From contig NZ_CP060713.1 of assembly GCF_014395785.1 (NCBI RefSeq), positions 2,570,501-2,634,500 of the forward strand: 64,000 bases of DNA, given 5' to 3'. The DNA comes from Nocardioides mesophilus (GTDB taxonomy: Bacteria; Actinomycetota; Actinomycetes; Propionibacteriales; Nocardioidaceae). The notes under the pieces are model-generated. The model searched no databases, was not told the DNA's origin, and saw only the letters and a program-made list of their open reading frames with translations. The position numbers and the translations under genes are program-made. Numbering within the stretch: position 1 is the stretch's first letter; every line of letters starts with the position of its first letter. Below, in pieces: positions 11,612 to 20,713 of the stretch.

Positions 11612-13315
11612 CTAGGGCGTGGGCGAGCAGGGGGTCATGCCCCCGGGCTGGAGCCAGGCGTGCACGAGAGGCACGACCGAGGCGCCCTCGCCGGTGGCCG
11701 CGGCCACCCGCTTCAGCGAGCCCGCCCGGATGTCACCGGCCGCGAAGATCCCGGGCGCGGTGGTCTCGAGGTTGCCGGGCGGCAGGCCGTCACGCCAGGA
11801 GTGCTTCGGGACGTCGCGACCGGTGAGCACGAAGCCCCGGCTGTCCCGGGCCACCTCCGTCGGCAGCCAGTCGCAGTGCGGGTCGGCGCCGAGCAGCAGG
11901 AACAGTCCGGCGGCCTCGTGCCGGGTGCTGGCCCCGGAGGCCGTGTCGCGCAGGGTGAGCCACTCGAGGCGGCCGTCGCCGCCGCCGTCGACGACCTCGG
12001 TGCACGGGCGGACCGCGATCCGCGGGTTGTAGTGGATCTCGTCGATGAGGTAGCGCGACATGGTGCTCGCCAGGCCGTCACGGCGGACCAGCACGGTCAC
12101 CGACCTGGCGAACCGGGAGAGGTGGACGGCCGCCTGCCCGGCGGAGTTGCCGCCCCCGACGACGTACACGTCCTGGTCCTCGAGCTCCCGGGCGGCGGTC
12201 ATCGCGGCGCCGTAGAAGACGCCGCGGCCCACCAGGGCCTCGAGCGGCTCCACCCGGAGCTTGCGGTAGGAGACCCCCGAGGCGATCACGACCGACCGGG
12301 CCGCCACGTCGCCGCCGTCGGTGCGCACCACGTGCGGCACGCCGCCGGAGCCCACGACCAGCTCGGTGACCGGCCATCCGGTCAGGAACCGGGTCCCGAA
12401 CCGGATCGCCTGCGAGCGCGCCCGCTGGGCCAACCGCATCCCGGAGACGCCGCGCGGGAAGCCGAGGTAGTTGCGGATCATCGAGCTGGTGCCCGCCTGT
12501 CCACCGATCGCCTCCGCCTCGAGCACGACGGTGCTCAGGCCCTCCGAGGCGCCGTACACGGCGGCCGCCAGCCCGGCCGGCCCGGCGCCGACGACGACGA
12601 GGTCGATCACGGAGTCGACGTCGATGTCGCTGGGGGCGCCGTAGATCGAGATCGCCACGTCGCGCACCGACCGGGCGACGACCGGTGCACGATCCATGGC
12701 CTCGACCACCGGGAAGCCGAGGTCGGCCTCGGCCCGTTGCACGCGGGCGAGCACGGCCCGGCCGGTCTCGCTGTCGGGGGAGTAGGTGCGGGCGGGCATG
12801 CCCATCCGGTCGGCGAAGTCGCGGATCGCCAAGCTGAGCGTGTCGTCGACCGGCGTGACGATCCGGACGGTGTCCACCTCGGGATCGGCGGCCGTGGAGC
12901 CCCAGTCCGACAGCAGCTCGGTGACGGCGTTGTGGAACTCCTCGTCCCGCTGGCCGCGTGGCATCAGCAGGAAGGCGTCGTACTTCCCCTTGGCGAGGCC
13001 GTCCCGCAGCAGCTGGCCGTCGTCGCGGAACCGGGACGAGTGCGCCACCACCAGCCGCCGGGCCGTCGGCATGACGGCCCGCCAGGAGTGGAACGCCGCC
13101 AGCACGTGCGCGTCAGGGAGCACCGACTCGGCGACCACCAGAGGCACCTGCCCGCCGGCGGCCTGGACCTCGGCCAGGACCTCGGCGGCGGCCGCCGCCG
13201 ACCGAACGCCGCGGATCGCGTAGTCGCGGGTGTAACGGCCGAACTCGTCGACGAGCAGGTCCAGGTGGTGCTCGGAGACCAGGACGATCACCGGCAGCTC
13301 TCGCGGGGTGCTCAC
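11612..13315 (-). CDS. Response regulator-like / thioredoxin reductase-like fusion
   Basis: A 567-aa protein. Residues 1-140 resemble a receiver domain, 145-230 a thioredoxin-like fold without a CxxC, and 240-560 a thioredoxin reductase-type flavoprotein. The last part has FAD motif GAGPAGLA (243-250), NADPH motif VVGGGNSAGQAAVHL and the closing TAPGIFAAGDIRAGS. At the position of the redox CxxC of TrxR it reads FYGAAMTAARE, so it cannot act as a classical thioredoxin reductase. GTG 13315 is taken as start because TACGAT lies 6 nt upstream. It is divergent from truA. Confidence 0.85.
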   Translation of the reverse strand: MSTPRELPVIVLVSEHHLDLLVDEFGRYTRDYAIRGVRSAAAAAEVLAEVQAAGGQVPLVVAESVLPDAHVLAAFHSWRAVMPTARRLVVAHSSRFRDDGQLLRDGLAKGKYDAFLLMPRGQRDEEFHNAVTELLSDWGSTAADPEVDTVRIVTPVDDTLSLAIRDFADRMGMPARTYSPDSETGRAVLARVQRAEADLGFPVVEAMDRAPVVARSVRDVAISIYGAPSDIDVDSVIDLVVVGAGPAGLAAAVYGASEGLSTVVLEAEAIGGQAGTSSMIRNYLGFPRGVSGMRLAQRARSQAIRFGTRFLTGWPVTELVVGSGGVPHVVRTDGGDVAARSVVIASGVSYRKLRVEPLEALVGRGVFYGAAMTAARELEDQDVYVVGGGNSAGQAAVHLSRFARSVTVLVRRDGLASTMSRYLIDEIHYNPRIAVRPCTEVVDGGGDGRLEWLTLRDTASGASTRHEAAGLFLLLGADPHCDWLPTEVARDSRGFVLTGRDVPKHSWRDGLPPGNLETTAPGIFAAGDIRAGSLKRVAAATGEGASVVPLVHAWLQPGGMTPCSPTP

Positions 13316-13339
13316 GAGCCGATCGTAGGTGGTGGTTGG
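13316..13339. promoter_or_regulatory. 24-bp divergent promoter between reductase fusion and truA
   Basis: The whole intergenic space is 24 bp. On the minus strand TACGAT (plus-strand 13322-13327) is 6 nt before GTG 13315. On the plus strand TAGGTG (13326-13331) is 8 nt before ATG 13340. The two -10-like hexamers overlap by two bases. If both are used, both messages are leaderless and polymerases would compete for the site. Confidence 0.5.
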
Positions 13340-14200
13340 ATGAGCGGCGTGCGGCTGCGAATCGATCTCGCCTACGACGGCACCGACTTCCACGGCTGGG
13401 CCGCACAGCCGTCGCTGCGCACCGTCCAGGGCACCCTGGAGGCGGCCCTGGCGCAGGTGCTCCGGATCGAGAAGGCGTCTGTGACCTGCGCGGGTCGCAC
13501 CGACACCGGGGTGCACGCTCGCGGCCAGGTGGTGCACCTCGACCTGATGGACGACGCGCTGCAGTCCGTTGCCGGCCGGGGTACGGCGCCGGAGGACGCC
13601 CTGGTCCGACGGCTCAACGGCGTGCTGGGCGAGGACGTCCGGGTGCACCGCGTGCTGGTGGCGCCCCCCGGGTTCGACGCCCGCTTCTCCGCGCTGTGGC
13701 GGCGCTACGCCTACCGGGTCGCCGACGAGCCCGGACTGGTGGACCCGCTGGTCCGTGCCGCGGTGCTCGCCTGGCCCCGGCGGCTCGACCTGGAGGCGAT
13801 GAACGCCGCCGCGGACCTGCTGGTCGGCGAGCACGACTTCGCGGCGTTCTGCCGGAAGCGCGACGGGGCCACCACGATCCGCACGTTGCTGGAGTGCCGG
13901 TGGGCCCGCGACGACGCGGGCCGAGCGGTCGCCACGGTGCGGGCCGACGCCTTCTGCCACAGCATGGTGCGGGCGCTGGTCGGCTGCATGCTCTCGGTCG
14001 GGGAGGGGCGCCGCGACCCGCAGTGGGCGGCCGGGGTGCTGCGCGGGCGGGTCCGCGACCCCGGGGTCACCGTGATGCACGCGCACGGGCTGACGCTCGA
14101 GGAGGTCGCCTACCCCGACGACGCCGACCTGGCCACCCAGGCCCGGGCCGCCCGGGTCCTGCGGGTGCTGCCCACCGAAGGGGGTCCGGCCGGTGGATGA
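13340..14200 (+). CDS. truA: tRNA pseudouridine(38-40) synthase TruA
   Basis: TruA isomerises uridines 38-40 in the tRNA anticodon arm. The 286-aa product has RIDLAYDGTDFHGWAAQP and the catalytic motif AGRTDTGVHARGQ with nucleophile D55. HDFAAFCRKRDGATTIRTL and FCHSMVRALVG complete the family pattern. In many actinobacteria truA directly follows rplQ; here three minus-strand genes lie between them. ATG 13340 has no Shine-Dalgarno but is preceded by a -10-like TAGGTG. The end overlaps the next gene by 8 bp. Confidence 0.96.
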   Translation: MSGVRLRIDLAYDGTDFHGWAAQPSLRTVQGTLEAALAQVLRIEKASVTCAGRTDTGVHARGQVVHLDLMDDALQSVAGRGTAPEDALVRRLNGVLGEDVRVHRVLVAPPGFDARFSALWRRYAYRVADEPGLVDPLVRAAVLAWPRRLDLEAMNAAADLLVGEHDFAAFCRKRDGATTIRTLLECRWARDDAGRAVATVRADAFCHSMVRALVGCMLSVGEGRRDPQWAAGVLRGRVRDPGVTVMHAHGLTLEEVAYPDDADLATQARAARVLRVLPTEGGPAGG

Positions 14201-14792
14201 GCACTACTTCTCCGCGGACCCGTCGGTGCCGTTCCGGCGGGCGCCGGTGCGGGCGGAGGTCTGGGGCCACGACCTGGACCTGGTCTCCGGCTCCGGCGTG
14301 TTCGCCCAGGGCAGGCTCGACGTGGGCACGGCCGTGCTGTTCCGGGAGTCCGAACCGCCGCGGACCGGCTCGACCTACCTCGACCTCGGCTGCGGGTACG
14401 GCGTCATCGGGATCGCCCTGGCGACGGCGCGCCCGGCCGCCCGGGTCTGGGCCGTGGACGTCAACGAGCGGGCGGTGCTGCTCGCCAACGAGAACGCCGC
14501 CGCCCTGGGGGTCGCGGACCGGTTCACCGCGGGCACCCCCGACGCGATCCCGGACGACCTCGAGGTCGACGAGATCTGGTCCAACCCGCCGATCCGGATC
14601 GGCAAGGAGGCCCTGCACGAGCTGCTGCTCCGCTGGCTGCCGCGGCTCGCTCCGGGTGGCCGGGCCGTGCTCGTCGTCGGCAAGAACCTGGGCGCCGACT
14701 CGCTCCAGCGCTGGCTCGGCGAGCAGGGCTGGCCGACGACCCGGCTGGCCAGCGCCAAGGGGTTCCGGGTGCTGGAGGTCCGTCGCGCCTGA
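14193..14792 (+). CDS. Class I SAM-dependent methyltransferase (RsmC-like)
   Basis: A 199-aa Rossmann-fold methyltransferase of the RsmC/RlmG (MTS) group. SAM-binding motif I DLGCGYG is at 64-70, the acidic motif II at AVDVN (87-91), and the catalytic-type NPP at 131-133 inside SNPPIRIGKEALHE. The family modifies guanine N2 in 16S or 23S rRNA, so an rRNA target is likely but not proven. GTG 14193 overlaps the truA stop by 8 bp, indicating translational coupling and a shared RNA-modification role. Confidence 0.88.
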   Translation: MDEHYFSADPSVPFRRAPVRAEVWGHDLDLVSGSGVFAQGRLDVGTAVLFRESEPPRTGSTYLDLGCGYGVIGIALATARPAARVWAVDVNERAVLLANENAAALGVADRFTAGTPDAIPDDLEVDEIWSNPPIRIGKEALHELLLRWLPRLAPGGRAVLVVGKNLGADSLQRWLGEQGWPTTRLASAKGFRVLEVRRA

Positions 14793-14829
14793 CCCGGCCA
14801 CTGCTCGCCGGCGGTGGATGATGGGCTCC

Positions 14830-15387
14830 ATGGACGACGGGCTGCTGCCGGTGGTGGAGGCGGATGCTCTGCGGGCGGCGGAGCCGACGTACGCCGAGGT
14901 GGGGCAGACCCGGACGGAGCTGCCCGAGGGCTACCGGCACCTCCGGCGCCGGGCGGATCTGGGCAGCGGGCCGGCTCGTTTCGAGGACGCGGCGCGCACC
15001 CTCCTGCACTGGGGGATGCACCGGAGGGCGGGGGTGCGGGTCCGGCCCTCGAGCGGGAGCGTGCAGCAGGACTCGGTCGCGGTGCTGCGCGTGGGCCCCG
15101 CGGTGCTGGCGGTGAAGGCTCCGGTCCGGGTCGTGTACGTCGTCGACGAGCCGCGTCGCCGGGGCTTCGCCTACGGCACGTTGCCCGGGCATCCCGAGAG
15201 CGGCGAGGAGGCGTTCGTCGTGACCCTCGACGACTCCGGCGCCGTCCGCCTCGAGATCACGGCGTTCTCGCGGGCCGCCACCCTCCTCACCCGTGCCGCC
15301 GGTCCCGCCGGCCGGGCCGCCCAGCGGCTCATCACGCAGCGCTACCTCAGCGCCCTCCAGGAGCGACCGGACCGGGACCGTCGATAA
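14830..15387 (+). CDS. DUF1990 family protein
   Basis: A protein of about 185 aa matching the DUF1990 pattern: YRHLRRRADLGSG, FEDAARTLLHWGMHRRAGVRV, RVVYVVDEPRRRGFAYGTLPGHPESGEEAF and EITAFSRAATLLTRAAGP. No enzymatic function is established. ATG 14830 is preferred, but in-frame ATGs at 14818 and 14821 are equally open and no Shine-Dalgarno separates them. It ends just before the promoter region of the ThrRS attenuator. Confidence 0.8.
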   Translation: MDDGLLPVVEADALRAAEPTYAEVGQTRTELPEGYRHLRRRADLGSGPARFEDAARTLLHWGMHRRAGVRVRPSSGSVQQDSVAVLRVGPAVLAVKAPVRVVYVVDEPRRRGFAYGTLPGHPESGEEAFVVTLDDSGAVRLEITAFSRAATLLTRAAGPAGRAAQRLITQRYLSALQERPDRDRR

Positions 15388-15415
15388 TCCGCAGGCGAGC
15401 GGGTCCCGGCCCGGC

Positions 15416-15421
15416 TAGCAT
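15416..15421 (+). promoter_or_regulatory. -10-like element of the ThrRS leader transcript
   Basis: TAGCAT lies 7 nt before the ATG of the Thr-rich leader peptide at 15429. The same spacing is seen before many leaderless starts in this window, so transcription would begin at or next to the leader-peptide start codon. No good -35 hexamer is visible. Confidence 0.5.
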
Positions 15422-15428
15422 TCCGGGC

Positions 15429-15476
15429 ATGTACCTGCTGCAGCGGACGACCACGCCGGATCCTCTCCGGCGCTGA
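15429..15476 (+). CDS. Thr-rich leader peptide (attenuator of ThrRS-like gene)
   Basis: A 15-codon frame encoding MYLLQRTTTPDPLRR, with three consecutive Thr codons (ACG ACC ACG, 15447-15455). It starts 7 nt after a -10-like TAGCAT. It lies 24 nt before a terminator-like hairpin and 100 nt before a threonyl-tRNA synthetase-type gene. CTCCGG at 15465-15470, just past the Thr codons, can pair with CCGGAG at 15505-15510 in the terminator left arm. A ribosome stalled at the Thr codons leaves that segment free; one reaching the stop codon covers it. This is the logic of ribosome-mediated attenuation. Confidence 0.75.
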   Translation: MYLLQRTTTPDPLRR

Positions 15477-15499
15477 CGTGCAGCACTGAAAGCACCCAC

Positions 15500-15526
15500 A
15501 AGCCCCGGAGCGTGTCTCCGGGGCTT
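15500..15526 (+). terminator. Attenuator terminator before ThrRS-like gene
   Basis: An 11-bp perfect stem (15500-15510 with 15516-15526; arms AAGCCCCGGAG / CTCCGGGGCTT) and loop CGTGT. It lies after the Thr leader peptide and 49 bp before the structural gene, so it is a regulated rather than an end-of-operon terminator. Its left arm overlaps the proposed antiterminator partner at 15505-15510. No long T-run follows, as is usual in GC-rich actinobacteria. Confidence 0.75.
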
Positions 15527-15575
15527 CGTCGTCCCCTGGCACCGCTTCGAGGCACCCCCCGCCGAAGGAGCCCCC

Positions 15576-16847
15576 ATGAACGACCGCACCGCCAGCCGGC
15601 CCGAGCCGCTGGACCACCGCGAGCTCAACCACGACCTGGCTGTCTTCGCCACCGACCCGGGCATCGGTCCGGGGCTGCCGCTCTGGCTGCCCGCCGGGGC
15701 CGTGATCCGGCACGAGGTCGAGCTGTTGGCAGGAGACCTCGCCCGCCGCGACGGCTGTCAGCGGGTGTACACACCGGTGCTGGCCAAGCGGGCGCTCTAC
15801 GAGCAGTCCGGTCACTGGGCGAAGTTCAGCGACGACATGTTCCCGCCGATGCGGATCGGGTCGGAGGACCTGGTGCTGCGCCCCGCGAACTGCCCGCACC
15901 ACGCACTGGTCTACGCCGCCGACCGGCACTCCTACCGCGAGCTGCCGGTGCGTCTCAACGAGCTGGCGCCGATGTTCCGGGCCGAGCGCTCGGGCGTGCT
16001 CTCGGGACTGAGCCGCGTGCGGCAGATCAACCTCGACGACACCCACGTCTTCTGCCGTCCCGACCAGACCGCGGCCGAGGTGGCCCGCGCGCTCCGTTCG
16101 GCGCTGCGGGCCCAGGAGGTGCTCGGCCTGCCCGTCGACCACGTGCGGCTCTCCCGCCGCGACGGGAGCGAGGCGTACCTGGGGTCCGTCGAGCAGTGGC
16201 AGCAGGCCGAGGATGCCCTGCGCAGCGCGGCCGCCGAAGCAGGGTTGGCGGAGCGGGGACTCAGTCTGGTCGAGGCGGAGGGAGAGGCGGCGTTCTACGG
16301 GCCCAAGCTCGACCTGCAGGTCCGCGACGGACGTGGCCACGAGGAGACCATCGCCACCGTCCAGCTGGACTTCAACCAGCCGGAGCGCTTCGACCTCACC
16401 TACGACGCCGCCGACGGCAGCCGGCAACGCGTCGTGATGATCCATCGCGGCACCGTCGGCGCGATGGAGAGGGTCGTCGCCGCGCTGCTCGAGCGCTACC
16501 AGGGGCGGCTGCCGCTGTGGCTGGCGCCGGTGCAGGTCTGCCTGCTCCCGGTCGGTCCTGCCCAGGACCCGGCCGTGCGGAGCCTGGCCGACGACCTGCT
16601 CGCGGCCGGGCTCCGGGTCCGCATCGAGGCCGAGGGGTCGCTGGGGGCCCGCATCCGCGCCAGCCGCCGGCGCCGCGACTGTCTGATCGCGGTCCTGGGG
16701 GCCGCCGAGGTCGAGGCGGACCAGGTGCAGGTCACCGACGTCGCCGCCGGTTTCGCGGGTCCGGTGGCCCGGGACCGGCTGCTCGACCTGTTGCCCCGGG
16801 CGTACGCCGCGCGTGCCGCCTTGGTCGACTGGGCCGCCGGTGGCTGA
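15576..16847 (+). CDS. Threonyl-tRNA synthetase-like, lacking TGS and editing domains
   Basis: A 423-aa class II synthetase. The catalytic core (about 20-305) has the zinc ligands of ThrRS, C106, H157 and H290. It also has motif 2 FRAERSG (134-140) and motif 3 IHRGTVGAMER. An HGTP anticodon-binding domain follows (315-415). Full-length ThrRS is near 640-680 aa; the N-terminal TGS and editing domains, about 240 residues, are absent. All active-site ligands are kept, so it should charge tRNA but cannot clear Ser-tRNA(Thr) itself. It may be a second, inhibitor-resistant or starvation-induced copy. The Thr attenuator upstream supports Thr specificity. Confidence 0.85.
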   Translation: MNDRTASRPEPLDHRELNHDLAVFATDPGIGPGLPLWLPAGAVIRHEVELLAGDLARRDGCQRVYTPVLAKRALYEQSGHWAKFSDDMFPPMRIGSEDLVLRPANCPHHALVYAADRHSYRELPVRLNELAPMFRAERSGVLSGLSRVRQINLDDTHVFCRPDQTAAEVARALRSALRAQEVLGLPVDHVRLSRRDGSEAYLGSVEQWQQAEDALRSAAAEAGLAERGLSLVEAEGEAAFYGPKLDLQVRDGRGHEETIATVQLDFNQPERFDLTYDAADGSRQRVVMIHRGTVGAMERVVAALLERYQGRLPLWLAPVQVCLLPVGPAQDPAVRSLADDLLAAGLRVRIEAEGSLGARIRASRRRRDCLIAVLGAAEVEADQVQVTDVAAGFAGPVARDRLLDLLPRAYAARAALVDWAAGG

Positions 16848-16894
16848 GGCGGCGCGCTGTTTCGCCGGGCGGCGGCCGAGGCAGGATGGGGTCC

Positions 16895-17932
16895 ATGAGC
16901 TCCTACGAGGCCGCCCCTGACCGCTACGGCTCGATGGACTACCGCCACACCGGTCGGAGCGGGCTGAAGCTGCCCGCGATCTCGCTGGGCCTGTGGCAGA
17001 ACTTCGGCGACGACCGCCCCGAGGAGACCCAGCGGGCGATCATCCGCCGTGCCTTCGACCGCGGGGTGACCCACTTCGACCTGGCCAACAACTACGGCCC
17101 GCCCTACGGCCGGGCCGAGTCCAACTTCGGCCGCTACCTCGCCGACGACCTGGCGCCCTACCGCGACGAGCTGGTGATCAGCACCAAGGCCGGCTACGAC
17201 ATGTGGCCGGGCCCCTACGGGCAGGGTGGCGGGTCCCGCAAGTACGTCCTCGCCAGCCTCGACCAGTCCTTGGACCGGATGGACCTCGACTACGTCGACA
17301 TCTTCTACAGCCACCGGTTCGACCCCGAGACGCCGCTCGAGGAGACGATGACGGCCCTGGACCACGCGGTCCGCACCGGCCGGGCGCTCTACGTCGGGAT
17401 CTCCTCCTACGACGCCGCGCAGACCCGGGAGGCCGCCTCGATCGCCCGCGACCTCGGCACGCCGCTGCTGATCCACCAGCCGTCGTACAGCATGTTGAAC
17501 CGCTGGATCGAGCAGGACCTGCTCGACGAGGTGGAGGAGCAGGGCATGGGCGTGATCGTCTTCAGCGCGCTCGCGCAGGGGCTGCTGACCGACCGCTACC
17601 TCGCCGGGGTCCCGGAGGACTCCCGGGCCGCCCGGAAGGGGTCCACGCTGCCGGGCAGTCATCTCGACGAGGCGACGTTGAAGCACGTACGGCGCCTCGA
17701 CGAGATCGCCCGCGGACGAGGCCAGAAGCTCGCACAGCTCGCGCTGCAGTGGGCGCTGCGCGACCGGCGGGTCACCTCCGCGGTGATCGGCGCGTCGTCG
17801 GTCGAGCAGCTCGACACCAACCTCGACGCGCTCGACGGGCCGCCGCTGACCGAGGAGGAGCTGGCCGCCATCGACGCCGACGCCGTGGAGGCCGGGATCA
17901 ACCTGTGGCGGCCGCGGGGCGAGCAGGACTGA
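16895..17932 (+). CDS. Aldo/keto reductase (YghZ-type)
   Basis: A 345-aa NADPH-dependent reductase of the L-glyceraldehyde 3-phosphate reductase (YghZ/Gpr) group. Catalytic residues are D62 and Y67 in FDLANNYGPPYG, K98 in STKAGYDMW and the His in FYSHRFD. YDMWPGPYGQGGGSRKY and QPSYSMLNRWIE are typical of this group, whose role is detoxification of triose-derived aldehydes. ATG 16895 has CAGGAT 7 nt upstream and no Shine-Dalgarno; an in-frame ATG at 16886 lies inside that hexamer. It stands alone between the ThrRS-like gene and ppdK. Confidence 0.92.
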   Translation: MSSYEAAPDRYGSMDYRHTGRSGLKLPAISLGLWQNFGDDRPEETQRAIIRRAFDRGVTHFDLANNYGPPYGRAESNFGRYLADDLAPYRDELVISTKAGYDMWPGPYGQGGGSRKYVLASLDQSLDRMDLDYVDIFYSHRFDPETPLEETMTALDHAVRTGRALYVGISSYDAAQTREAASIARDLGTPLLIHQPSYSMLNRWIEQDLLDEVEEQGMGVIVFSALAQGLLTDRYLAGVPEDSRAARKGSTLPGSHLDEATLKHVRRLDEIARGRGQKLAQLALQWALRDRRVTSAVIGASSVEQLDTNLDALDGPPLTEEELAAIDADAVEAGINLWRPRGEQD

Positions 17933-18028
17933 ACAGGTCGCGCTGGTTGATGCCAGGGGCCATCCTGCCCGACTCGCGGGGGCAGGTGGGCCCTGTCCCA
18001 GGACCATTCCGCGGGGCATGATGCCCCC

Positions 18029-20713
18029 ATGACCTTCGTCTACGACTTCGAGCAGGGAAGCAAGGACCAGAAGGATCTCCTGGGGGGCAAAGGCGCCAAC
18101 CTCGCGGAGATGACCGTCCTGGGACTTCCGGTGCCACCAGGCTTTACCATCACCACGGAGGCCTGCCGGGCCTTCCTGGAGCAGGGGAAGGAGCCCGACG
18201 GGCTGGCCGAGGAGGTCAGCGCGCACCTCGCCGCCCTGGAGCAGAAGATGGGCAAGCGGCTCGGGGATCCCGAGGACCCGCTGCTGGTCTCGGTCCGCTC
18301 CGGAGCAAAGTTCTCGATGCCCGGGATGATGGAGACCGTCCTGAACGTCGGTCTCAACGACCGCAGCGTGCAGGGGCTCGCCGCCGTCGCCGGCGGTGAC
18401 GAGCGGTTCGCCTTCGACTCCTACCGGCGGCTGCTGCAGATGTTCGGCTCCACGGTGCTGGGCCTGGAGGCGTCGGTGTTCCACGAGGCCCTGGACGGGC
18501 TCAAGGCCGACCGAGGCGCCAAGAACGACCTGGACCTCGGCGTCGAGGACCTGCGCGAGCTGGTGGCGACGTACAAGCAGCTGATCCACGACCACACCGG
18601 CCGGGACTTCCCGCAGGAGCCGCGCGAGCAGCTCGACATGGCGGTGCTCGCCGTCTTCGAGTCCTGGAACACCGAGCGCGCGGTGCTCTACCGCCGCCAG
18701 GAGCGGATCCCCGGCGACCTCGGCACCGCGGTCAACGTCTGCTCGATGGTCTTCGGCAACGGCGGCCAGGACTCCGGCACCGGCGTGGCCTTCACCCGCG
18801 ACCCGGCTTCGGGCGCACAGGGCGTCTACGGCGACTACCTCCAGAACGCGCAGGGGGAGGACGTCGTCGCGGGCATCCGCAACACCGTCCCGCTCGCCGA
18901 CCTCGAGGGCATCGACAAGGCCTCCTACGACGAGCTGCTCGGCATCATGGCCACGCTGGAGGGGCACTACCGCGACCTGTGCGACATCGAGTTCACCATC
19001 GAGCACGGCAAGCTCTGGATGCTGCAGACCAGGGTCGGCAAGCGCACCGCCGAGGCGGCCTTCCGGATCGCCTGCCAGCTCGTGGACCAGGGGCTCATCG
19101 ACGAGGACGAGGCGGTAAGCCGGGTGACCGGCGCCCAGCTCGCCCAGCTGATGTTCCCGCGGTTCGACGCCGGCAGCGAGCGGGTCCTCATCGCCAAGGG
19201 CATGAACGCCTCCCCGGGTGCGGCGGTCGGCAAGGCCGTCTTCGACTCGAGCACCGCGGTGGAGTGGGCCGAACGAGGCGAGGACGTCATCCTGGTCCGC
19301 CGGGAGACCAACCCCGACGACCTCCGCGGCATGGTCGCCGCGAAGGGCATCCTCACCAGCCGCGGCGGCAAGACCTCGCACGCCGCGGTGGTCGCCCGCG
19401 GCATGGGCCGCACCTGCGTCTGCGGAGCCGACTCCCTCGACGTCGACGTCAAGGGCACCAAGATGACCGCCGCCGACGCGACGGTGATCTCCGAGGGCGA
19501 CATGATCTCGATCGACGGCACCACCGGCGAGGTCTTCGCCGGCCGGGTCCCGGTGAGGGACTCCCTGGTGGTGCGGCACTTCGAGGGCGACGAGCGGGCC
19601 GAGGACGACCACCTCGTGCTGGCGGTGGAGCGGCTGATGAAGCACGCCGACCATCGGCGACGGCTCGGCGTACGCGCCAACGCCGACACCCCGGAGGACG
19701 CCGCCCGGGCCCGGCGCTTCGGTGCCGAGGGCATCGGGCTGTGCCGCACCGAGCACATGTTCCTCGGTGACCGGAAGGCGCTGGTGGAGGACCTGATCGT
19801 GGCGGGCAGCACCGATGAGCAGGAGGCGGCGCTGTCCGCGCTGCTGCCGATGCAGCGCGACGACTTCGTCGGCATCCTGAAGGCGATGGACGGCCTGCCG
19901 GTCACGATCCGGCTGATCGATCCGCCGTTGCACGAGTTCCTTCCCGACTACACCGAGCTGTCGGTGTCGGTCGCGCTGGAGGACGAGCGCGGCAACCGCG
20001 ACAGCAAGCACCACAAGCTCCTCGACGCGGTGAAGAAGCTGCACGAGCAGAACCCGATGCTCGGCCTGCGCGGCGTGCGGCTCGGCATCGTGATCCCCGG
20101 CCTGTTCTCCATGCAGGCACGCGCGATCCTCGAGGCCGCCTCCGCGCTGATCAAGCAGGGCATGGATCCCCAACCGGAGATCATGATCCCGCTGGTGGCG
20201 ACCGTGCAGGAGCTGGAGCTGGTCAAGGCCGACATCATCCGGGTCGCCGGAGACGTCGAGGACGAGACCGGCGTGAAGCTGAAGTTCAAGGTCGGCACGA
20301 TGATCGAGCTGCCCCGGGCGGTGATGGCGGCCACCGAGATCGCCGAGCAGGCGGAGTTCTTCTCCTTCGGCACCAACGACCTCACCCAGATGACGTGGGG
20401 CTTCTCGCGCGACGACGTCGAGGCGTCGTTCTTCGGCACCTACCTGGACAAGGGCATCTTCGGGGTCTCGCCGTTCGAGTCGCTGGACCGCGAGGGCGTC
20501 GGGGCGCTGGTGCGGCTGGCCGTCGAGAAGGGCCGCGCGGCCCGCCCCGACCTGCACCTCGGCGTCTGCGGCGAGCACGGCGGCGACCCGGACTCGATCC
20601 ACTTCTTCGACGAGGTGGGCCTGGACTACGTCTCCTGCTCCCCCTTCCGGGTGCCGGTGGCCCGGCTGGAGGCGGGACGCTCGGCCGCCGACGCGATCTC
20701 CGACACCGCCTGA
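18029..20713 (+). CDS. ppdK: Pyruvate, phosphate dikinase
   Basis: PPDK converts pyruvate, ATP and Pi to PEP, AMP and PPi (reversible). The 894-aa product has the N-terminal ATP-grasp part (GGKGANLAEMTVLGLPVPPG, MPGMMETVLNVGLND). The swivelling phosphohistidine domain shows SRGGKTSHAAVVARGMG, and the PEP/pyruvate barrel has GTNDLTQMTWGFSRDD and the catalytic Cys in GVCGEHGGDP. It is complete at normal family length. A CATGAT hexamer 6 nt before ATG 18029 suggests a leaderless mRNA; a strong hairpin follows the stop. Confidence 0.97.
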   Translation: MTFVYDFEQGSKDQKDLLGGKGANLAEMTVLGLPVPPGFTITTEACRAFLEQGKEPDGLAEEVSAHLAALEQKMGKRLGDPEDPLLVSVRSGAKFSMPGMMETVLNVGLNDRSVQGLAAVAGGDERFAFDSYRRLLQMFGSTVLGLEASVFHEALDGLKADRGAKNDLDLGVEDLRELVATYKQLIHDHTGRDFPQEPREQLDMAVLAVFESWNTERAVLYRRQERIPGDLGTAVNVCSMVFGNGGQDSGTGVAFTRDPASGAQGVYGDYLQNAQGEDVVAGIRNTVPLADLEGIDKASYDELLGIMATLEGHYRDLCDIEFTIEHGKLWMLQTRVGKRTAEAAFRIACQLVDQGLIDEDEAVSRVTGAQLAQLMFPRFDAGSERVLIAKGMNASPGAAVGKAVFDSSTAVEWAERGEDVILVRRETNPDDLRGMVAAKGILTSRGGKTSHAAVVARGMGRTCVCGADSLDVDVKGTKMTAADATVISEGDMISIDGTTGEVFAGRVPVRDSLVVRHFEGDERAEDDHLVLAVERLMKHADHRRRLGVRANADTPEDAARARRFGAEGIGLCRTEHMFLGDRKALVEDLIVAGSTDEQEAALSALLPMQRDDFVGILKAMDGLPVTIRLIDPPLHEFLPDYTELSVSVALEDERGNRDSKHHKLLDAVKKLHEQNPMLGLRGVRLGIVIPGLFSMQARAILEAASALIKQGMDPQPEIMIPLVATVQELELVKADIIRVAGDVEDETGVKLKFKVGTMIELPRAVMAATEIAEQAEFFSFGTNDLTQMTWGFSRDDVEASFFGTYLDKGIFGVSPFESLDREGVGALVRLAVEKGRAARPDLHLGVCGEHGGDPDSIHFFDEVGLDYVSCSPFRVPVARLEAGRSAADAISDTA

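Follow-up and report, generated by a model that had tools for sequence, protein, structure and literature searches.

The region upstream of a short threonyl-tRNA synthetase (ThrRS) gene in the window (the whole 64,000-nt stretch of Nocardioides mesophilus DNA analysed here) is very probably a ribosome-mediated transcription attenuator of the trp/his/leu type, which would control a spare ThrRS that lacks the editing domain. Its anatomy, conservation, covariation and predicted geometry are read from sequence; charged tRNA-Thr is the likely signal, termination is presumably efficient, and the short ThrRS would act as a back-up enzyme. If so, the charging state of tRNA-Thr governs, through an RNA element unmatched in Rfam, a spare ThrRS of patchy distribution. 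An earlier note on this DNA had proposed attenuation, a reading that was largely borne out by the presence of the element in 59 of 59 orthologs, by covariation and by predicted folding; the regulation itself is what we infer.

In the proposed mechanism, transcription would start at or beside the leader ATG, and the leader peptide would be translated leaderless. When Thr-tRNA is charged, the ribosome would reach the stop codon and cover strand 2, and when the ribosome is absent or gone, helix 1:2 would form; with strand 2 engaged in either way, strand 3 would pair with strand 4 and transcription would stop. When threonine runs out or the main ThrRS is blocked, so that charged Thr-tRNA is scarce, the ribosome would stall on the Thr codons and cover strand 1. 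Strand 2 could then capture strand 3 ahead of the synthesis of strand 4, letting RNA polymerase read through into the synthetase gene.

Architecture of the leader region

All features described here lie on the forward strand. A -10-like hexamer, TAGCAT (15416-15421), stands 7 nt 5' of the leader ATG and suggests a leaderless leader transcript. Among 83 leaders examined, a TANNNT box lay 6-8 nt 5' of the start in all 82 that had a start codon where expected, i.e., 15-27 nt before the Thr run (a count made without a shuffle control), and this conserved spacing is consistent with a leaderless transcript whose 5' end is the leader ATG. The leader ORF MYLLQRTTTPDPLRR (15429-15476; ATG at 15429, stop TGA at 15474-15476) has 15 codons and contains the three Thr codons ACG ACC ACG (15447-15455), that is, a codon run for the amino acid of the gene to be regulated, as is characteristic of attenuators.

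The CG of the third Thr codon is the start of strand 1, CGCCGGA (15454-15460), which pairs with TCCGGCG (15466-15472) of strand 2 (CTCCGGCG, 15465-15472) in a helix of 7 bp with a 5-nt loop; in this sequence, helix 1:2 is predicted at a probability of 0.99 without a ribosome. The other partner of strand 2 is strand 3 (AAGCCCCGGAG, 15500-15510), the 5' arm of the terminator, in which CCGGAG (15505-15510) would form the antiterminator. Strand 4 (CTCCGGGGCTT, 15516-15526), the 3' arm, closes an 11-bp stem with a 5-nt loop. Because strand 1 starts inside the third Thr codon, the classical 1:2, 2:3 and 3:4 set of an attenuator is complete, and pair counts and predicted folding (see below) indicate that 2:3 and 3:4 are mutually exclusive while 1:2 overlaps the control codons.

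Most of these parts had been described in the earlier note. A direct reading of the sequence confirms its leader of 15 codons with three for Thr, its -10 box and its terminator of 11 bp, and the terminator stem does lie 3' of the leader stop, at 23 nt instead of the 24 nt given. CTCCGG (15465-15470) and the terminator were likewise correctly placed, and strand 1 had been missed. Pairing of CTCCGG with the terminator 5' arm holds, but not its description as "only 6 bp": the predicted antiterminator is longer, because CTCCGG/CCGGAG is joined by GCU/AGC across one C.C mismatch.

The fold of 15430-15535 reached -50.8 kcal/mol (z = -4.61), and none of 200 shuffles was as good. The window terminator is followed by CGTCGTCCC; no U-run extends past the closing UU, and the hairpin may be a weak intrinsic terminator. 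At other loci the tails range from T-rich to none, and the stem is strong and conserved. A covariance model (R1), built from the 59 rows of alignment A1 (the window being one of these rows), scored the window element at 83.1 bits as the one strong match in the 4.49-Mb genome, and the next-best candidates scored were the antisense of the same hairpin (23.2 bits) and a match of 21.8 bits.

Downstream, a Shine-Dalgarno (SD) sequence, GAAGGAG (15564-15570), precedes the auxiliary short ThrRS of 423 aa (15576-16847, ATG at 15576). The ThrRS-type gene that had been placed behind the terminator was confirmed by a class II core and an anticodon domain (Pfam) and by a TIGR00418 thrS score of 394.6 bits against a cutoff of 383.65 (NCBIfam); a Pfam search found no N-terminal TGS or SAD editing domain in the 423-aa protein. 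Since another ThrRS match of the same genome lies inside a 671-aa frame (G000:C1:3957667), the 423-aa ThrRS is a paralog; the gene is an auxiliary, spare ThrRS beside a full-length ThrRS rather than the housekeeping copy.

Conservation and linkage to short ThrRS genes

A scan of genome contigs covered the best 80 of 440 relatives, including 59 actinobacterial records (L031-L089) with 49-77% identity. Among these best 80 of 440, the leader was present in 59 of 59 actinobacterial orthologs, with Thr-Thr-Thr-Pro (TTTP) in 56 and Thr-Thr in three (L051, L053 and L069), and R1 matched before the gene in all 59 at 36.7-85.3 bits; 45 of them were rows of the model and 14 were not, the two lowest-scoring (L081 and L083) belonging to the 14. 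The alignment of relatives that the earlier note had called for therefore retained the Thr codons and hairpins in 59 of 59 (among the best 80 of 440), and no ortholog that kept the gene and lost the element was seen among these 59. The relatives compared are actinobacteria at large, two of the 59 orthologs (L053 and L069) being Nocardioides records. In 21 other relatives (L090-L110), the single R1 match at E<=1 scored 13.2 bits (L096) and lay away from the gene.

As evidence against the reading of the earlier note, TTTP is kept and the standard strand 2 absent in L002-L004 and L006, and L002-L006 and L026 scored only 13-25.5 bits with R1. These loci form one family, perhaps Actinopolymorphaceae, in which the TTTP leader is kept, the terminator mostly so, and strand 1 seems by eye to be paired otherwise (CGCCGC/GCGGCG).

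The RNA and the short ThrRS are linked near one-to-one. We surveyed 296 genomes drawn evenly from the class, taking as short ThrRS the matches of at least 328 bits (other matches had at most 297 bits) and following RNA matches of at least 32 bits. Forty-nine of 50 short ThrRS genes were preceded by the RNA; in the exception (G223), the contig ends 106 nt beyond the short ThrRS match. Similarly, 47 of the 50 RNA matches of at least 44.8 bits lay before a short ThrRS of at least 328 bits, and the other three lay before another short ThrRS (G168), before a full-length ThrRS (G307) and at a contig end (G301). Eight RNA matches scored 32-41 bits: two (G278 and G269) stood before short ThrRS genes, and no short ThrRS was tied to the remaining six (G334, G127, G344, G121, the second in G225, and G273), with the TTTP motif absent in G334, G127 and G344, the three of those six looked at.

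Several loci deserve separate description. In L177 (G307:C55:36500-38990), the gene behind the attenuator encodes a full-length ThrRS that includes the SAD editing domain; it is the only match listed for this genome at E<=1e-40 and indicates that the switch can be captured by the main ThrRS gene. The short ThrRS match in L011, L019 and L151 spans one TGA, reflecting either a late frame end or broken copies. Genes for tRNA beside the cassette showed no general pattern, with one present in 3 of 34 loci scanned; the only tRNA-Thr among the three is a CGT gene in L086 (1583-1678), about 3.3 kb upstream of the short thrS.

Covariation and changes of reading frame

Alignment A1 comprises 59 of 83 loci: L002-L006, L026, L081 and L083 were dropped first (divergent or unclear hairpins), and a further 16 of the remaining 75 were removed as near-duplicates. 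The terminator end was set by hand for ten loci (L010, L034, L046, L073, L074, L076, L077, L081, L083 and L084). With structures taken from the window's own row and shuffle counts that ignore relatedness, 1:2 and 3:4 together were 92.6% paired and had 53 double-change cells vs 19.9 in shuffles (0 of 500 as high), and 2:3 was 97.4% paired with 16 double-change cells vs 6.0 (0 of 500), a U-A pair of this helix having turned to C-G in 14 sequences. Most double changes were held by the 3:4 stem, where seven of the eleven terminator pairs changed on both sides. Helix 1:2 was 94.4% paired, with its outer A-U pair open in 18 of 59 sequences; five of its seven pairs are invariant and so are by themselves uninformative on covariation. 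Further pair types were marginal for 1:2 and 3:4 (29 of 500 shuffles as high). Compensatory changes, sought in both helices as the earlier note had advised, were thus found in 3:4 and, on some measures, in 2:3, for which two of five measures (pairs with a double change and further pair types) were no higher than in shuffles (363 of 500 each).

At its tail the leader encodes LRR, SGAR or VPAR, corresponding to a CCGGCG core in three reading frames. The motif occurred in 111 of 135 genes examined, with the frames split 47, 39 and 25 (L099 being without a start codon). A quick tree built from 110 proteins, with support below 80 at 35 of its 105 inner branches, gives at least seven changes in the frame of strand 2. 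Pairing is the best explanation for a run of nucleotides that persists while its frame shifts, and if this is true, the amino acids of the leader-peptide tail can vary while its nucleotides are held constant in all three frames.

Predicted folding with a ribosome on the leader

Transcripts of the A1 rows were cut after strand 3 and folded with the ribosome footprint masked, as an equilibrium folding of partial transcripts without kinetics. With the footprint edge at P+11 and the A site at Thr columns 1, 2 and 3, helix 2:3 formed at a probability of at least 0.5 in 53, 58 and 57 of 59 sequences, and with the edge at P+14 in 58, 58 and 57 of 59. The counts were 8-15 of 59 with the A site at codons -6 to -2 and 0-7 of 59 at codons +4 to +8. 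Helix 2:3 was likewise obtained with the A site one codon past the Thr run under edge P+11 (54 of 59) or one codon short of it under edge P+14 (53 of 59); as each neighbouring codon works under one edge setting, it is on the Thr run that the two settings agree. For a ribosome at the stop codon, or none at all, 2:3 reached 0.5 in 0 of 58 sequences, and without a ribosome, the probability of 1:2 reached 0.5 in 48 of 58, not all. Helix 2:3 is thus predicted by this model to form mainly with the A site at or beside the Thr codons.

A candidate fifth strand

Between the terminator and the synthetase gene, a candidate strand 5 (GGCACCGCTTCG, 15538-15549) can pair with the end of strand 3 and the loop (15506-15516) or with the SD region. 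Pairing with the loop was analysed in 97 loci, consisting of 67 of the 83 and 30 others, with 16 left out by a fixed list (unclear hairpins or divergence). Strand 5 and loop of the same locus bind better than re-dealt pairs (mean -16.7 vs -13.5 kcal/mol; 0 of 5000 permutations). Dealing within groups gave 10 of 5000 for 15 Kribbella-type loci, 0 of 5000 for a group of 30 loci, 0 of 5000 for 35 others, and 634 of 5000 for 16 Promicromonosporaceae-type loci, which have only two distinct loops; both group labels are guesses, the Kribbella-type one resting on L009, whose protein is identical to that of L088. Covariation of strand 5 and loop is visible by eye in L143 and L131. In 23 loci the loop differs from the one that prevails in the group; the locus's own loop binds strand 5 more strongly than the prevailing one would in 14 of them, and less well in 9, including L014. 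Overall, strand 5 covaries with the arm and loop of the terminator, with exceptions.

Strand 5 also resembles an anti-SD sequence, for which support is weaker than for the loop pairing: compared with shuffled spacers, SD pairing had a mean of 0.80 vs 0.69, and 18 of 73 loci scored above 19 or more of their 20 shuffles, a weak signal. Release of the SD by strand 5 in the antiterminated state was considered and rejected, as the median SD-unpaired probability was 0.24 in both states (55 sequences), with a rise above 0.2 in none and a fall above 0.2 in three. In the 2:3 state, strand 5 was predicted to pair with the loop at a probability of at least 0.5 in 21 of 53 sequences, including the window (0.66), and in the unconstrained fold in 3 of 53 (L038, L043 and L045).

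These data leave room for a five-strand switch, in which 15538-15549 would pair with the end of strand 3 and the loop mainly when the terminator is unformed, and strand 5 would lock the antiterminated form and might couple read-through to synthetase translation. We put forward only tentatively, as a rather doubtful extension, both this switch and the idea that it would travel with the short ThrRS as a portable, self-sensing back-up cassette.

Alternative explanations

Control could instead be exerted by Rho-dependent termination, or on thrS translation with SD access governed by strand 5, the 3:4 hairpin then being a spacer or stability element. The weak U-run in the window speaks for such control, and strand 5 can pair with the SD region (0 of 3000 permutations over 79 distinct loci; 65, 9 and 242 of 3000 within groups). 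We nevertheless regard this as unlikely, since the 3:4 stem is where most double changes sit and predicted SD exposure is the same in the two states. Little credence is also due to the idea that the region is a chance assembly of a GC-rich spacer, an unrelated hairpin and a meaningless short frame, whose probability we consider practically nil: high GC content, and nothing further, speaks for it, and it is refuted by the element in 59 of 59 orthologs (among the best 80 of 440) and opposed as well by the -10 spacing, the covariation, the one strong match in the genome, the gene linkage and the frame changes of strand 2.

The same leader and helices might also serve a general translation-stress gene, with stalling caused by a context-specific ribosome drug or by the TTTP nascent peptide. 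Chloramphenicol stalls ribosomes whose nascent chain carries a Thr close to its end, which counts in favour of drug-induced stalling. Also in favour, the WblC/WhiB7 translation-drug stress regulon of S. coelicolor, as given in PMC7157823, lists thrS2, which may or may not be the short form. Yet the peptide differs greatly between leaders on either side of the motif (ahead of TTTP and beyond TTTP(D/E)), Pro and the acidic residue next to it are explicable by strand 1 (CGCCGGA) instead of the peptide, three orthologs (among the best 80 of 440) have only two Thr, and a ThrRS lies behind 49 of 50 strong RNA matches, the remaining one being at a contig end; a stress role of this kind is, in our judgement, very improbable. 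If instead the ribosome-mediated attenuator responds to Thr-tRNA charging as we propose, its occurrence would predict which genomes can rescue a failing ThrRS, and the element could act as a sensor for Thr-tRNA charging or ThrRS inhibition.

Distribution and possible lateral spread

The short ThrRS is patchily distributed. In 60 other genomes of the window's family, some of them incomplete, no match exceeded 286.7 bits and 41% identity, which is the level of the main ThrRS; the gene is present in the Nocardioides records L053 and L069. Carriers of the element include Acidimicrobiia and a Nitriliruptoraceae bacterium. In five of six congeners, namely those with both flanking genes on one contig, the slot between these genes contained neither an R1 match nor a thrS match better than E 0.84. 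This slot, between methyltransferase and aldo/keto reductase genes (window 14193-17932), varies in length, from 176 to about 1850 nt in L210-L214 vs 2108 nt here, and is a possible insertion hotspot. Plasmid copies with the leader were found in M. intracellulare subsp. chimaera (L184, 59.4 bits) and S. anulatus (L185, 70.6 bits), the plasmid of Mycobacterium intracellulare subsp. chimaera carrying a short thrS with the leader MLSAQQTTTPDYIRS and a terminator (L184, 2860-2960). The patchy distribution, empty congener slots and plasmid copies are compatible with gene and switch having spread laterally as a unit; repeated loss might also account for the patchiness.

Comparison with known systems

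Thr-related genes are under leader control in other bacteria as well: a T-box regulates thrS in Firmicutes, and the thr operon of E. coli has a Thr leader. Common to these systems and, as proposed, to the element here is that Thr-tRNA charging controls a Thr-related gene; unlike in the T-box, the sensor here would be the translating ribosome. No T-box was matched at E<=1 in window 13000-19000 or at gathering score in L031, L007, L185 and L111, and no Rfam 15 family reached its gathering score in these same sequences, the window region having sub-threshold matches elsewhere only.

An attenuator of the auxiliary, indolmycin-resistant TrpRS1 in Streptomyces was reportedly described by Vecchione and Sello in 2010. 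It would be, like the element proposed here, a case of a spare aminoacyl-tRNA synthetase under ribosome-mediated attenuation, but with Trp codons and a different enzyme; the indolmycin resistance of Streptomyces TrpRS1 is noted in PMC9437257. For the present short ThrRS, resistance to inhibitors such as borrelidin is one conceivable reason for keeping the gene. Actinobacterial attenuators of trp, trpS, leuS and ilvB were described by Seliverstov et al. 2005 (PMC1262725) and, as presented there, share with our element a regulatory-codon leader peptide, an antiterminator and a GC-rich terminator; the words "threonyl" and "thrS" are absent from the text of that article. For Anabaena thrS2, zinc control has been reported (PMC4787780), a mode of regulation that is conceivable for the present gene too.

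The closest relative is thrL of S. lividans TK24, a leaderless Thr-codon leader upstream of thrS that was found by RNA-seq (PMC8079986) and was the one Thr-codon leader before an actinobacterial thrS found in the open-access literature searched. As presented there, its peptide MKRVRPFLETTPGFVPAR has the TTP..VPAR end seen in most leaders of L119-L147, it represents one species with two Thr codons, and its authors call termination unclear and report that a U-run is missing after thrL too. The S. lividans metL leader before metNIQ (Table 4 of PMC8079986) contains ATTTPGAR, similar to the leaders here, and may be a related Thr-codon element assigned to methionine. Alternative strands, conservation and the link to the short paralog are absent from the account of 5'-UTRs in PMC8079986; SLIV_19410 may or may not be the short form. 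One Streptomyces leader of this kind is already published, and what is new here is how widely the element occurs, its make-up of four strands, and a candidate fifth strand located upstream of the thrS start codon.
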